Below, piece by piece: positions 16,142 to 22,079 of a stretch of DNA of 64,000 nt; position 1 is the first letter of the stretch, and every line of letters starts with the position of its first letter. The translations under genes were made by a program, and so were the position numbers. The notes beneath the pieces are model-generated. The model searched no databases, was not told where the DNA came from, and was given only the letters and a program-made list of their open reading frames with translations. The DNA comes from an uncultured Dysgonomonas sp. (GTDB taxonomy: Bacteria; Bacteroidota; Bacteroidia; Bacteroidales; Dysgonomonadaceae), in contig NZ_LT599032.1 in NCBI RefSeq assembly GCF_900079725.1, forward strand, positions 1,296,871 to 1,360,870, written 5' to 3'.

Positions 16142-16181
16142 AAAAAGAAGAAGCCTTATAGATATTTCTACAAGGCTTCTT
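16142..16181 (-). terminator. Terminator of the gld operon
   Basis: AAGAAGCCTT pairs with AAGGCTTCTT with a mismatch and four more inner pairs. On the minus strand it ends in five T residues just past gldN. Confidence 0.8.
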
Positions 16182-16199
16182 ATATAATACTAATTCCTC

Positions 16200-17060
16200 T
16201 TATCGTCTTCTTTCCGCAGCATAAAATTTAGACTGGATATAATCCAATTCATTCTCTATACGCTTACGCTCATTTATCAGGTCCTTCATTTCAGGAAAGT
16301 GAGCAGACAATTGTCTCATTCCCACCTGATATATACAACCTCTATACCATCTGTTACGGATAATATCAAACATAGAAGCATTCGTCAGAACAGGAGTTAC
16401 ATTAGCTACTCCTACCGGTGATACCGCTCTTGCCAAATATACACTCACATCATCGAAGCGAACCCAGAATAATGGGAAATATTTGCCTTTTTCGAACAGT
16501 ACCGGACAAATATGTGTCACTCGCACATCGCCTTTGGATGTCTTGGCATCGAAATACCATCTCTCTTTTACCAGATAGTGAGTTATCTTATCCGACGGAA
16601 TATCTTCCCTTTTCACATTTAAAGTCTTATCACTAGCCTCAGTGAATGGAACAGCAGCTTCCTCCAGAGTTTCTTTTCCAGTGAGCATCGCACCCAATTC
16701 CGGTTGAGCTTCGTATTTATATCCGTTTATTGTATTTGTACTCAAAAGGTTTACTAACAATGAGAACAGGTTGGTTCTCTGCTCTGTAGATGTCTGAGGA
16801 TAAAAGAATGTTTCATTGCCTTCCACATCACTAATCTGACGGTAAATCTCACGCGACCAGATTGAGGAAGAATAATCATTCATTGAATTTTCCATAACTG
16901 CTAATTCTCTTGTAGAGATATCAGTAGCCATATCCTCTGATGTAGAAGTTACAACTGATACTTCATCTAAGATCCTAGGTCTGTTATTTGCGCAGTTTTG
17001 TGCGAAAAGCGAACCTGTTATCAGTAATCCGCCAAACATTAATGAAATGATAGATTTCAT
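16200..17060 (-). CDS. gldN: Type IX secretion / gliding protein GldN (PorN)
   Basis: A 286-residue periplasmic protein with a cleavable signal peptide (ends near SLFAQ, residue 21). In the type IX secretion system PorN binds PorK to form the large ring under the outer membrane. GldN-type text includes KERWYFDAKTSKGDVRVTHICPV and FDIIRNRWYRGCIYQVGMRQL. It is the last gene of gldK-L-M-N, 21 bases after gldM. The length is somewhat below Flavobacterium GldN but normal for PorN-like proteins. Confidence 0.88.
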   Translation of the reverse strand: MKSIISLMFGGLLITGSLFAQNCANNRPRILDEVSVVTSTSEDMATDISTRELAVMENSMNDYSSSIWSREIYRQISDVEGNETFFYPQTSTEQRTNLFSLLVNLLSTNTINGYKYEAQPELGAMLTGKETLEEAAVPFTEASDKTLNVKREDIPSDKITHYLVKERWYFDAKTSKGDVRVTHICPVLFEKGKYFPLFWVRFDDVSVYLARAVSPVGVANVTPVLTNASMFDIIRNRWYRGCIYQVGMRQLSAHFPEMKDLINERKRIENELDYIQSKFYAAERRR

Positions 17061-17081: not shown

Positions 17082-18653
17082 TTAATTGATCGTTACTTGC
17101 ATTGGGTTTGTTTCCTGTTCAACCCCATCAGGACCTTTTACCTTGATGTCGCCGATGAAGAAACGTGTCCCTCTATTCATTTTTCTTATTTGTTCTATCT
17201 GACGTTGAGAGAAATTAGCACCATTCGATAATTCCGGTGTAGTATTTCCCATTGCATCAAACGAATATGTTCTGAAACTTAATACTGTAAATTGAATATC
17301 AAGAATACCATCATCTATTGAAGCCTTAATCCCCGGGGAATTTAGTATCAAGGCTCTGGACAGAGCACCTTTTCTAAACTTCCTCTGGTTACCATTAGCA
17401 TCTTTATAATCAATATATGCCAACGCCGGTGGTAATGGACGTATCCTGAATTCTTTTCTTGCTACAGTTTGAGTCGCTCCATTCACTCTCGCTGATACGG
17501 TAATTACAAATTTTTGCCCTATTTTAGATGGAGAAGGCGAAGCTACCCAAATTCCATTGCCTAATGCACTCAAAGTTCCGCCATCTACAGCTGTCGCCGA
17601 AACTTCACTTATAGGGACACCGGGAACAGATATACTAATCTGATTAGGAATACCTGAATAAAGTACATCCATCAGCAAAGGTGCAACTGTAGCCATCGGC
17701 TCCATAACAGTATATTCCTGAGTAAATTCCCGTTTCAATGGGAATCCGCTCCGGTCCAGCATTTCTATGAATCCATTGAAAGTCTGCTTTCCTGTACCTG
17801 TAGCGGCAAATTCATATAAACCGTTTTTATCTTCCGGCAACTCTTTGCCATTGACAACGATACGCGGACGCTGGGTTGTATCGACCGCGGCCATGATAAT
17901 CTGTGCCGAATATGTTGTCCCGCGCATTACCATGCTAGATTGAGGAACGACAAAAGCACTCAATTGATTGACCCGCATGTCTTTTATATCAATATCCTGA
18001 ATCAAATTATTCAGAACTTCTCCTTCCGCCTGCTTCACATTCACCTGCAACTCTGATAAAAAAGTTATAGCGGCAATACTTGGCATTCTATCGAAAGAAG
18101 CCTGTAACCAGCTTTTCCCGTCTTTCTTAGCCCTTTCATTTGGCTGAGTAGAAAGGGTCTTACTGACCACATCTTTTTTTGTATTATCAGATATCAGGGT
18201 TAATATGCTTTCTCTGTATTCATCCAACGCTTTCTTCAGTTTATTTCCCTGTCCGCCGACGGGAGAAATCATTACTTCGGATGAGGCATCAAGATTGTCT
18301 TTCGATTTCAGGTTATTAATATCGGCATTTGCCCCGTCACTCTTCTTTGCTATTTCCTGTTTTAGATATTGGATATAATTGAAAAGTGAATCGGTTTTGC
18401 GCCTTACATCTCGTGATATATCAAATCCTACCTGCGTTTTTTCCCTATTATTAGCATATGCCTGATCTATATCTGCATAAATTTGTTTATTCCGTGCAGC
18501 TGTAACCTCTATATTTTCCTGAAGATTATCATTTACCAATACGAATCCATCGAGTACTTCTGTCGATACATTTAAAGCGAGCATAGCAATAAAAACCAGA
18601 TACATCAGATTTATCATCTTCTGCCGCGTCATTTGCCCTCTACTTAATGCCAT
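17082..18653 (-). CDS. gldM: Type IX secretion / gliding motor protein GldM (PorM)
   Basis: A 523-residue inner-membrane motor protein that crosses the periplasm and couples the GldL motor to the PorK/N ring. The N-terminus MALSRGQMTRQKMINLMYLV is typical, with one transmembrane helix at about 13-30. A helical region (about 40-220) and then beta-rich domains follow (for example GLYEFAATGTGKQTFNGFIEM and the C-terminal FFIGDIKVKGPDGVEQETN). Length and layout match the family. It lies 47 bases after gldL and 21 before gldN. Confidence 0.93.
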   Translation of the reverse strand: MALSRGQMTRQKMINLMYLVFIAMLALNVSTEVLDGFVLVNDNLQENIEVTAARNKQIYADIDQAYANNREKTQVGFDISRDVRRKTDSLFNYIQYLKQEIAKKSDGANADINNLKSKDNLDASSEVMISPVGGQGNKLKKALDEYRESILTLISDNTKKDVVSKTLSTQPNERAKKDGKSWLQASFDRMPSIAAITFLSELQVNVKQAEGEVLNNLIQDIDIKDMRVNQLSAFVVPQSSMVMRGTTYSAQIIMAAVDTTQRPRIVVNGKELPEDKNGLYEFAATGTGKQTFNGFIEMLDRSGFPLKREFTQEYTVMEPMATVAPLLMDVLYSGIPNQISISVPGVPISEVSATAVDGGTLSALGNGIWVASPSPSKIGQKFVITVSARVNGATQTVARKEFRIRPLPPALAYIDYKDANGNQRKFRKGALSRALILNSPGIKASIDDGILDIQFTVLSFRTYSFDAMGNTTPELSNGANFSQRQIEQIRKMNRGTRFFIGDIKVKGPDGVEQETNPMQVTIN

Positions 18654-18700: not shown

Positions 18701-19645
18701 TTAAAAATTAGTTGGGTTCATATTGTTATTATTTGTTGTCATAGCCTGTAATAAACGAGCATATACGTTATTCAACGCTTCTATATGCTTAGTCATTTTT
18801 GCAGATTCTTCCCTGAACATATAACTATCGCCAATAGCTCCGTCATATAAACCTTTCATACGGATCAAGCTATCGTTTATATATCTGATGGCCGACATTT
18901 GCTCTGTTATAGTCTGTAGCTGTGTATTGAATACATCATTCAGTCCACTTACATTTTGATTTAATGTCGCTAAGTTATCTACAAAACCTTGAGTTTCGGT
19001 AACGTGCTTATAAGCTCCCAACAGTTTCTGAGATGCTTCATTCAACGATTGTATAGTAGTAGAAAATTCTTCCAGATTTTGAGCAGTATCATTCAAACTC
19101 TGAGCATATTCAGGTGTTATATTTTTTGCTGAAGCATTCGTACCACCTGACGCACCCGAAGAATATGTTCCCGTTGACGCTGTCTGATTTACTCCGGCAT
19201 TAGCACCACCTCCGGTACTACCGGCAGATATCGCCCCTGAGCCTGAAAAACTTCCTCCGGAGATACTTCCACCTCCACCACCTGCAACAACAACTACCGA
19301 ACCAGAACCTTCGACTTTACCTTTACCTGATTCTGTCCTTACAGCAGCTGCTGCCTGAGGAGTTACAACTGTACCGCTCGTAACACTACTGCCAATAATC
19401 ACTCCTGCATTAGATACAGTTTCTGTTGCCGGAGTGGGGGAGATATAATCGAATGCTGAGATAAAGAAAACTACGGCCTCGGTAATCATCCCCGCCATTA
19501 ATATATAATCGGCAAAAGGAAGATGAATTATCTTAAACATAGCTCCAATAATAACTACTGCAGCACCCCAGCTATATAAATAGTTGAATATTATCTGACC
19601 TTTTCGGCTGGATATAAAATGTTTAACGCTTTCCTTCTTCGTCAT
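18701..19645 (-). CDS. gldL: Type IX secretion / gliding motor protein GldL (PorL)
   Basis: A 314-residue inner-membrane protein, the proton-driven motor partner of GldM. Two transmembrane helices occupy about 17-41 and 45-66. The second contains Glu56 (MAGMITEAVVFF), the acidic residue expected for proton use. Residues about 75-172 form a low-complexity Gly/Ser/Ala/Thr linker with a run of five glycines, longer than I expect for the family. A helical cytoplasmic domain (about 175-305) follows. The gene sits between gldK (55 bases) and gldM (47 bases). Confidence 0.92.
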   Translation of the reverse strand: MTKKESVKHFISSRKGQIIFNYLYSWGAAVVIIGAMFKIIHLPFADYILMAGMITEAVVFFISAFDYISPTPATETVSNAGVIIGSSVTSGTVVTPQAAAAVRTESGKGKVEGSGSVVVVAGGGGGSISGGSFSGSGAISAGSTGGGANAGVNQTASTGTYSSGASGGTNASAKNITPEYAQSLNDTAQNLEEFSTTIQSLNEASQKLLGAYKHVTETQGFVDNLATLNQNVSGLNDVFNTQLQTITEQMSAIRYINDSLIRMKGLYDGAIGDSYMFREESAKMTKHIEALNNVYARLLQAMTTNNNNMNPTNF

Positions 19646-19700: not shown

Positions 19701-21878
19701 TTATCTAAATCTTCCCTTTTCATCAACACCCCACGATCTCACACACCTGAAACCGATGAATGAACGACCCTTATCCTGGAACTCAACGGATCTGTCTCCC
19801 GAACGTACTGTTGCATCTTTCCACGAGCCACCTTTTACGATTTTACGTTTAAGGATAGCAGGATCAGCCAATACTGCTCTATAGCTGAAATCAGGATTAG
19901 CCTCATCAGCCATACGGTCTACAGACTCAGTAAATGTTGTAGTGGTCCACTCTGCTACATTTCCGGCCATATCATACAAACCGAAACGGTTAGGCAAGAA
20001 CGTTGCCACAGGAGACACCAAATCTTTTAAGTCTTTAGATGCCCTGAAATTAGCATGAGCCAAACCATCTGTTGTATGGGTTTGGTCCGAATACCATGGA
20101 TATTCCAGTTCGGAACGTCCGTTTCTGGCAGCAAACTCCCACTCTGCTTCTGTAGGCAATCTATAACCTTCAAAACCTGTCTGACTACACTTACCGTCTG
20201 CAATATAACGATCGGTGCGCCATGCGCAGTATGCATCGGCAGCTTCCCAGGATACACCAACCACAGGGAAATTATCATAGGCCTTAGTTGTAAAATAGCT
20301 TTCTACATAACGCTCGCTTTTTGCATTTGCGAAGTCCGTCATCCAGCTCATTACATCAGGGTATATATTTACGATATAAGTATTCGTAAAATCGATCCGG
20401 TCACCGTGAGACATCCTTGACAATGTTTCGCGAACAATATCCCCTCTCGAATTCACATATGCAGTATCTTTAGTAATAGCGATAGCAGTAGCTTCACCTG
20501 CACGCATTTTACCGAGGAAAGCATAATAACTCTTTGAGTCGAACCAATCATATTTATAATTCATTGCCGAAACAAGCAATCCACCTTTATCTGCACCAAA
20601 AGGATTCCCTCCTACTACACTGTTAATAGCAGCAGCTTCCCTGCTTGTCGGGTTTTTCCACGGAATTGGTTTAGTCCAGTTCAAACGTTGTCCTACGGAA
20701 GTGAAAGAATTATCACTTGGTCGCACCAATACTTTATATGTAGGATCTCCTGCATAAGCCGGATCAGCCAAACGCTCTCTGATAATGGAATCACGTACCC
20801 AGTAAACAAATTCACGATATTGTTTGTTCGTCACTTCTGTTTCATCCATCCAGAAAGGACTTACAGCAACCAATTTGCGTGGAACCGAGTCGCCCCAAAG
20901 CGGGTCTACACCGGTACCCATCTCTATGTTACCACCGGGTACAAGTACCATCTTATCACAACCCCGTGCTATATTATATGGCATAACTAAACGCGTTTCA
21001 ATGGCCGGATCAATATATTTCGGCTCTCCGAATTTATATGTTACCCCCATTGTAGCCTGAGCAATACCATTATTACTCATATCACCTTGTTGTCCATCAA
21101 ATTTATCACTAATAATAACTCCTCTACCTTCAGCAAAGATTTGAAACTTTCTGGTTAAGTTAAAACCTAAATTCAGACCTAAGCTACCGCCAAAGAATGT
21201 ATTATTGAGTGTACCCATATGCGCAAAACGTTGATACCAACCCACACCGGCAAATGGTGACACTTCAAATCTACGATTTGGCTGATATCCTTTTAATAGA
21301 TTCAACAAATTCAACGAGATATCTCCCGTTGCACTAAAATAACGCATATGCTGCATATAGTAATTTTGGTTTTCGGCACCAAATTTACCTCCTCTTGCCG
21401 GATGATATACAGGCACTCCTGTACCATCTACAGCACTATATTCATAATCAACGCCTTCTACCCAACCCATATAATCCCATTGCGGGTCTTTAGATAGGCG
21501 CATAAAATCCTCCCCATTAGCTCCATCTTTCCACCAGCGGGTGTAAGTCCCGTTCCAACCGTCATTGAAACCATGAAGACTACCGCCCGAAAGCTGCAAG
21601 CGTAGGGTTATTATATTACTCATTCGTCGCCCGATTGTCAATGTAGGCGCGAAAGTTACTCTCTTATCCAGGCCTATACGATTGCCCGGTACTCCATTAT
21701 CATCTTCTCCGAAATAAACCTGCCCTCCGGCTCCTATGGAAATAAACCAAACAGGGTCTTTCTGTAAATATTCATTCCGCGTCGGGACGGAATATTGCTC
21801 AGATTGGTTTGTCTGTGCGAAGGAAACTATTGATACACAAATCAATAGTAGTGAAGTTAGTAAAGTCTTTTTGTTCAT
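19701..21878 (-). CDS. gldK: GldK/PorK-type secretion protein fused to an N-terminal outer-membrane beta-barrel
   Basis: A 725-residue protein, much longer than usual GldK/PorK (about 450-490). Residues 308-725 are the GldK part, a formylglycine-generating-enzyme-like fold: MVLVPGGNIEMGTG, FWMDETEVTNKQYREFV, GYRLPTEAEWEFAARNG, FGLYDMAGNVAEWT, GGSWKDATVRSGDRS and GFRCVRSW. Before it, residues about 40-284 look like an OmpA-type barrel: alternating strands such as WFISIGAGGQVYFGEDD, ITLRLQLSGG and a final ATMGVTYKFG. The N-terminus is an ordinary signal peptide ending in SFAQ, with no good lipobox, although GldK/PorK are normally lipoproteins. The barrel may replace the lipid anchor. It heads the operon, with a -7 element at 21919. 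Confidence 0.9.
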   Translation of the reverse strand: MNKKTLLTSLLLICVSIVSFAQTNQSEQYSVPTRNEYLQKDPVWFISIGAGGQVYFGEDDNGVPGNRIGLDKRVTFAPTLTIGRRMSNIITLRLQLSGGSLHGFNDGWNGTYTRWWKDGANGEDFMRLSKDPQWDYMGWVEGVDYEYSAVDGTGVPVYHPARGGKFGAENQNYYMQHMRYFSATGDISLNLLNLLKGYQPNRRFEVSPFAGVGWYQRFAHMGTLNNTFFGGSLGLNLGFNLTRKFQIFAEGRGVIISDKFDGQQGDMSNNGIAQATMGVTYKFGEPKYIDPAIETRLVMPYNIARGCDKMVLVPGGNIEMGTGVDPLWGDSVPRKLVAVSPFWMDETEVTNKQYREFVYWVRDSIIRERLADPAYAGDPTYKVLVRPSDNSFTSVGQRLNWTKPIPWKNPTSREAAAINSVVGGNPFGADKGGLLVSAMNYKYDWFDSKSYYAFLGKMRAGEATAIAITKDTAYVNSRGDIVRETLSRMSHGDRIDFTNTYIVNIYPDVMSWMTDFANAKSERYVESYFTTKAYDNFPVVGVSWEAADAYCAWRTDRYIADGKCSQTGFEGYRLPTEAEWEFAARNGRSELEYPWYSDQTHTTDGLAHANFRASKDLKDLVSPVATFLPNRFGLYDMAGNVAEWTTTTFTESVDRMADEANPDFSYRAVLADPAILKRKIVKGGSWKDATVRSGDRSVEFQDKGRSFIGFRCVRSWGVDEKGRFR

Positions 21879-21918: not shown

Positions 21919-21926
21919 CAAAGATA
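21919..21926 (-). promoter_or_regulatory. Candidate -7 element of the gld operon
   Basis: On the minus strand TATCTTTG matches the -7 consensus exactly, 41 bases before gldK. No TTTG is found at -33. Confidence 0.5.
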
Positions 21927-22013: not shown

Positions 22014-22046
22014 AAAAAAGAGGGCCAGTCATAATGACTGGCCCTC
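22014..22046 (-). terminator. Terminator of nifJ
   Basis: A perfect 12-bp GC-rich stem (GAGGGCCAGTCA with its complement) around a 3-base loop. It is followed on the minus strand by six T residues, separating nifJ from the gld operon. Confidence 0.9.
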
Positions 22047-22079
22047 CAAATGTTATTATATATTAATGGCTAATAAGCA

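Follow-up and report, generated by a model that had tools for sequence, protein, structure and literature searches.

A barrel-PorK fusion protein of Dysgonomonas that has lost the barrel-reactive cysteine, and a putative second ring set on one PorLM motor

In a 64,000-nucleotide stretch of Dysgonomonas DNA (the whole of which is the window referred to here), we found a single gene, K', that joins an outer-membrane barrel to the PorK/GldK domain of the type IX secretion system (T9SS). This barrel-PorK architecture is real and conserved, and apparently specific to the genus. Our strongest single result is that the cysteine through which canonical PorK is linked to barrels has been lost together with the gain of a fused barrel. 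The fusion, its spread, the lost lipobox and reactive cysteine, the remodelled subunit contacts, the single PorM and the gene order can all be read directly from the DNA, and the interpretation that we favour, with a probability of roughly 0.55, is that K' and a diverged PorN (N') would form a genus-specific ring or track, driven by PorLM and carrying peptide-linked OmpA-family barrels as passengers, beside the canonical PorK-PorN ring. The K' reading frame starts with ATG, encodes 725 residues and has no internal stops; its features, in window coordinates, are as follows.

19701..21878, minus strand: barrel-PorK fusion gene K', 725 aa (ORF translation with profile and structure-sequence matches)
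21813..21878, minus strand: signal peptide, residues 1-22, without a lipobox (by eye; helix 3-22 in the AlphaFold2 model)
21030..21749, minus strand: predicted 8-stranded OmpA-family barrel, residues 44-283, with a long loop at 106-173 (AlphaFold2, Foldseek, hhalign)
20958..21029, minus strand: conserved linker, residues 284-307 (majority-residue share, mean 0.83 in 16 orthologues)
19704..20957, minus strand: PorK/GldK FGE-like domain, residues 308-725 (TIGR03525, P. gingivalis PorK, Foldseek)
20061..20063, minus strand: codon of Leu606, aligned with the barrel-reactive cysteine of canonical PorK (alignment)

The GldK profile TIGR03525 matched K' residues 308-714 with 376 bits (curated cut-off 350) over profile positions 35-406, and the solved P. 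gingivalis PorK matched residues 310-715 with an E value of about 2e-110. Profile positions 1-34 were unmatched and no lipobox could be seen by eye; C14, preceded by LLI, is the sole cysteine of the leader and is serine in one of 16 orthologues. Judged by its sequence, K' is a PorK-domain protein and not a PorK lipoprotein. A whole-protein AlphaFold2 model (23 sequences, mean pLDDT 62.6), in which the K half was poor, matched both PorK (1e-27) and OmpA (3e-7) in Foldseek. An earlier sequence-only reading had described a GldK fused to a barrel in one open reading frame, behind an ordinary signal peptide without a lipobox, and on both points it was right, the latter by inspection of the leader.

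The region ahead of the PorK domain (residues 1-302) gave no meaningful Pfam match at E values up to 10, and its fold was therefore examined by modelling residues 23-306 separately (19 sequences, mean pLDDT 68.3). Eight long strands, at residues 44-56, 75-85, 90-105, 174-189, 204-219, 226-240, 245-257 and 269-283 in the full model, were placed alike in both models, whose overall confidence is modest, and were mostly predicted well. In Foldseek the barrel model matched OmpA (5e-8), Ail (1e-6) and NspA (5e-6), and also OmpX and OprF, all of which are 8-stranded barrels, and it is because of these matches that we take the predicted barrel to be closed, in keeping with the barrel that had been proposed here from the strand pattern. 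With a cleaved signal peptide and an even number of strands, the C-terminus of K', and hence the PorK domain, should be periplasmic.

The ancestry of the barrel was assessed by profile comparison. Alignment by hhalign with OmpA-family proteins of the same family and order gave a probability of 100 and an E value of 2e-56 over 229 columns, and a GGSLHGFNDG motif is common to the K' barrel and the long-loop barrels of that family. By strand number and homology the K' barrel belongs with the Bacteroidales OmpA-family barrels. A PorG fused to PorK was ruled out, as the PorG profiles NF052316 and PF19573 found no match (whole K' in NCBIfam, E up to 1; residues 1-302 in Pfam, E up to 10), hhalign against PorG was weak (probability 49, C-terminal half only) and an intact PorG lies elsewhere in the same genome (218.8 bits against a cut-off of 130). 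PorP/SprF was likewise rejected, with no Pfam match to PF11751 and an hhalign probability of 0.2. These comparisons make the barrel an OmpA-family one, neither PorP nor PorG.

The OmpA-family proteins that share this barrel differ from K' in having a C-terminal OmpA domain where K' has PorK: the peptidoglycan-binding domain PF00691 had no Pfam match in K', and scored above cut-off in three of four barrel relatives scanned and below it in the fourth. Among 61 genomes searched, the long-loop barrel was matched strongly (E up to 5e-45) only by the fusion, in 21 of them, and by stand-alone OmpA-family proteins in three that lack the fusion (G005, G029 and G036); at that E value the two never occurred in one genome. 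This distribution, together with the OmpA domain of the relatives, suggests that PorK took the place of the C-terminal OmpA domain in a barrel gene of this kind. In G005, a Dysgonomonas, the stand-alone barrel (L038 2959-4947) is followed by a weak OmpA domain and TPR-like repeats.

In November 2025, Liu et al. (PMC12635249) described disulfides that tie outer-membrane barrels covalently to the moving track. In that report the PorG and SprF barrels are disulfide-linked to GldK Cys343; the P. gingivalis counterpart, PorK Cys356, sits in an Arg-Gly-Cys-Phe loop at the membrane face, and export of type A substrates depends on the GldK cysteine. We aligned 22 canonical Dysgonomonas PorKs, ten from other genera, 19 fusions and P. 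gingivalis PorK, leaving out a truncated fusion (G012) and one with a deletion (G007). The barrel-reactive cysteine is present in all canonical sequences (22/22 from Dysgonomonas and 10/10 from other genera, 32/32 together) and in P. gingivalis PorK, whereas the position is leucine in 19/19 fusions, so that K' has no reactive cysteine in an RGCF-like loop; inspection by eye showed that the cysteine is absent from the G007 fusion as well. Cys307 was considered as a stand-in and discarded, since it is found in only 12 of 16 aligned orthologues. PorG is encoded in 24 of the 25 Dysgonomonas genomes, and each of the seven PorG tails examined carries two cysteines, as CxC or CxxC. On these sequences, canonical PorK has retained the disulfide system, K', with a barrel of its own, has lost it, and a peptide bond seems to have replaced the disulfide in K'.

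Like the PorG- and SprF-linked PorK/GldK of Liu et al. (PMC12635249), K' carries a barrel covalently on the PorK domain, and PorG too is 8-stranded; K' differs in the bond, which is peptide and not disulfide, in the barrel family and in a stoichiometry fixed at 1:1. Joining the two genes seems to achieve in Dysgonomonas what an inter-protein disulfide achieves in relatives. Gorasia et al. 2016 (PMC4980022) obtained a crosslink between PorG, itself 8-stranded, and Lys39 near the N-terminus of P. gingivalis PorK, so that the fusion point coincides with a place where a barrel already docks. The lipidated N-terminus of PorK is turned towards the membrane in the published ring (PMC12635249), an orientation that an N-terminal barrel would fit.

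The spread of the fusion was determined in the same 61 genomes. Of the 25 Dysgonomonas genomes 21 carry it, against none of the 36 other relatives. Nineteen copies are full length, that of G012 is cut by a contig end and that of G007 (L066 6975-9008; an incomplete genome) has an internal deletion that leaves residues 365-421 of K' unmatched. The four Dysgonomonas genomes without the fusion comprise two that are incomplete (G001, G003) and two that are near-complete (G005, G016). Wider sampling gave the same picture: among the matches listed, a 295-genome Bacteroidales sample held the fusion in its three Dysgonomonas only, the other GldK matches listed being in frames of at most 535 aa, and a 395-genome sample of the phylum held no other full-length fusion. 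Two candidates were rejected, one (G101, L210 3126-5159) being a lipoprotein PorK of 678 aa whose domain has large insertions and the other (G454) a long frame produced by a stretch reading N.

Relative to the nearest relative (G019), dN/dS was 0.044 for the barrel and 0.031 for the K part, against 0.026 for canonical PorK, dS being near or past saturation in more distant pairs; on these values K' is under purifying selection, strong on the K part. A promoter-like TAnnTTTG element, which we take to be the Bacteroidota -7 consensus, lies 44-59 bp 5' of the ATG in 21/21 fusion genes. Recurrence in 21 genomes (19 of them with full-length orthologues), the promoter-like element and purifying selection together argue that K' is not an assembly or frame error, which would have undone the sequence-only reading. 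The neighbouring features and the second K locus are listed below.

22019..22047, minus strand: terminator-like hairpin between the upstream gene and K' (hairpin search)
21919..21926, minus strand: promoter-like TAnnTTTG element (sequence match)
18701..19645, minus strand: porL/gldL (TIGR03513 above cut-off, PF22827)
17082..18653, minus strand: porM/gldM, the sole match in the genome (TIGR03517)
16200..17060, minus strand: porN', a diverged second PorN/GldN (PF19841 above cut-off; TIGR03523 82.7 bits, cut-off 85.9)
16148..16181, minus strand: terminator-like hairpin 3' of porN' (hairpin search)
C1:1226175-1229812 of the same genome (L037 4176-7813): canonical porP-porK-porN operon without porL and porM (profile searches)

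With hairpins upstream of K' and after porN', the four genes of the operon appear to be transcribed together. L, M and N' adjoin K' in this order in 20 of the 21 fusion-bearing genomes, and in the 21st (G012) the contig ends there. PorL (18701-19645) has a long Gly/Ser-rich stretch, at about residues 80-165 between its membrane and C-terminal parts, whose length varies in relatives.

The genome, a single contig of 5.22 Mb, encodes a second PorK. This canonical PorK is a lipoprotein, and its gene lies with porP about 88 kb from the fusion. Canonical loci have the order P-K-N without L or M in 22/22 Dysgonomonas cases (G001, G003 and G006 being outside the count), whereas in other genera K-L-M-N stand together in this order at 10/10 loci, with P in view at nine. 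N' has about 27% identity with canonical N. The only PorM match of the genome (TIGR03517) is the one in the fusion operon, and among the 20 further genomes with the fusion a single match above cut-off was obtained in 19 and none in G012, which is cut there. Dysgonomonas thus encodes K and N twice but the motor once, and it is beside the fusion that the motor genes are found; as the only PorM sits in the fusion operon, one PorLM would most likely serve both ring sets. These data do not support the earlier view of K' as the organism's ring protein, since the same genome also encodes a lipoprotein PorK of the canonical type, accompanied by PorP and PorN, and a PorG that is intact. No porP adjoins the fusion operon, as had been noted, but one does adjoin canonical porK, and this rules out K' as the lone PorK of a genome without porP. 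Compared with PorK/GldK of the T9SS PorKN ring and the GldJKN gliding track, K' shares an FGE-like domain above the GldK cut-off and adjoining L, M and N genes; it differs in its missing lipobox, N-terminal barrel, lost reactive cysteine and a deleted contact loop, and Dysgonomonas differs in having canonical PorK besides.

Both near-complete genomes without the fusion, G005 and G016, have L and M without K' and N', so that K'N' is dispensable there. In G016 this L-M pair is found a few genes downstream of the gene that precedes the fusion operon, presumably pyruvate:ferredoxin oxidoreductase; in the incomplete G003, L directly follows that gene, and in G005 L-M adjoins other genes of the fusion-operon neighbourhood. 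When canonical K, N and M are concatenated, the resulting tree requires two changes in the presence of the fusion, which we read as a gain at the base of the genus with losses in G005 and G016, although the forks there are weak. The PorK tree does not place the fusion clade safely, the clade having a long stem and the tree program flagging meeting long branches.

To compare assembly of K' subunits apart from canonical PorK and with it, thirty-four K-K contact positions were mapped from the residues listed in a structure paper (mBio 2025, PMC12421860; P. gingivalis PorKLMN co-expressed in E. coli), with a numbering offset of 23 to full length that was checked on cysteines. The K' consensus matches the canonical Dysgonomonas consensus at 9/34 of these, and the consensus of other genera matches it at 26/34. 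Outside the contacts K' agrees at 42% (insertion InsH) and 50% (rest) and other genera at 81% and 75%, so the contacts have diverged beyond background, although the whole K domain has diverged. All 19 fusions have a deletion of one contact loop, that with full-length positions 204, 205 and 207. Of the regions assigned to PorN docking (PMC12421860), VR1, VR3 and VR5 are shared with canonical PorK at 27, 27 and 29% in K', against 67, 64 and 43% between genera.

These comparisons bear on a mixed ring, in which K' would be a minority subunit of the canonical PorK-PorN ring, supplying a few built-in barrels much as PorG sits on few PorKs. The presence of one PorM only speaks for it, as do two statements in PMC12635249, namely that GldJ and GldK, both FGE-like, were modelled in one F. 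johnsoniae track and that GldK there is in large excess over its barrel partners. K' might co-assemble with canonical PorK, since its K domain has diverged everywhere and not at the contacts alone. We nevertheless consider this arrangement unlikely in view of the contact divergence and the deleted loop, and because PorN, too, has a second copy, N', which is missing where K' is missing. The diverged N' beside K' in 20/21, the absence of both from G005 and G016 and the remodelled contacts are better explained by an assembly reserved for K' and N'. The proposal that the barrel is built into the ring subunit stands as regards the OmpA-type barrel in PorK and the vanished lipobox, but not as regards the genome's only PorK, and the 'dozens of barrels' once envisaged would apply only if the K' ring were homogeneous.

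For the favoured K'N' assembly we propose the following sequence of events. K' would have arisen from PorK by replacement of the lipid anchor with an OmpA-family barrel, giving an outer-membrane passenger that is peptide-bonded where PorG or SprF is disulfide-bonded to canonical PorK. K' and N' would assemble together, apart from canonical PorK and PorN, to give a separate ring or short track beneath the outer membrane, and PorLM, powered by the proton motive force, would move this set. The barrels and their long surface loop would be dragged sideways in the membrane as hard-wired passengers, one per subunit, and might push secretion carriers or move surface structures, while the same motor would also drive the canonical PorK-PorN ring with PorG. 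Assembly, movement and passenger role are what we infer here, and the fuller version, in which two ring sets share one PorLM and one of them is a hard-wired conveyor with a barrel on each subunit, derived by exchange of an OmpA cell-wall anchor for a ring subunit, has in our estimation somewhat less than an even chance of being correct.

The published ring has an inner diameter of 380 and an outer diameter of 540 Å and most often 33 subunits (PMC12635249). By simple arithmetic from these values, barrels on such a ring would be 36-51 Å from their neighbours. The width of an 8-stranded barrel fits within this spacing. A pure K' ring would have a barrel on each subunit, unlike the GldK excess described above, and may be a static anchor rather than a set of passengers. 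As such an anchor, the barrel-held K'N' ring would be an immobile bearing or docking ring for motors or translocon; the high drag of so many barrels, and a cysteine loss that takes away mobile partners, point this way. We regard it as quite improbable, however, as K' heads the PorLM operon and keeps both a PorK domain and a PorN partner, the moving part in known systems. That K' forms no ring at all, being a periplasmic scaffold or adhesion protein retaining the FGE fold, accords with the long stem of the fusion clade, the lost contact loop and the dispensability of K'N' in G005 and G016, but we give it very little credence against a GldK match above cut-off, strong purifying selection on the K part and a K'-L-M-N' order conserved in 20/21.

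A literature search whose coverage excluded most subscription papers and preprints turned up no paper that deals, by its title or abstract, with a barrel fused to PorK or with a Dysgonomonas T9SS, and the accessible part of a T9SS phylogeny (PMC7323717) makes no mention of Dysgonomonas, fusion or paralogs. A natural fusion of a barrel to the same track protein, with that very cysteine lost, provides independent evolutionary support for covalent coupling, and offers a system with a fixed barrel-to-ring stoichiometry for testing force transmission by barrel movement. If the conveyor is real, it would have evolved in place of the disulfide coupling that other Bacteroidota use. The gene content also raises the question of one motor serving two diverged ring sets.

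Other T9SS components were also surveyed. Sov/SprA is present once per genome in 9/9 searched. Type A cargo matches number five in the genome under study, 4-7 in fusion-bearing genomes (n=5) and 2-14 in those without (n=4), so that neither an excess of cargo with the fusion nor any link to cargo number was seen. A third FGE-like gene (C1:128559-129401) was rejected as GldJ, scoring far below the GldJ and GldK cut-offs. Four genomes encode proteins of about 340-370 aa with the GldM C-terminal part only, below cut-off (G010:C10:433107, G015:C1:96445, G020:C380:4873 and G024:C58:54378), which could possibly be PorM-like arms without the motor part. In addition, two Bacteroidales genomes that belong to the same family each have a pair of GldK matches in a span of about 6 kb (G585:C84:8509-14647 and G657:C21:434637-440768), and these pairs would, by their sequences, be another case of doubled ring subunits.
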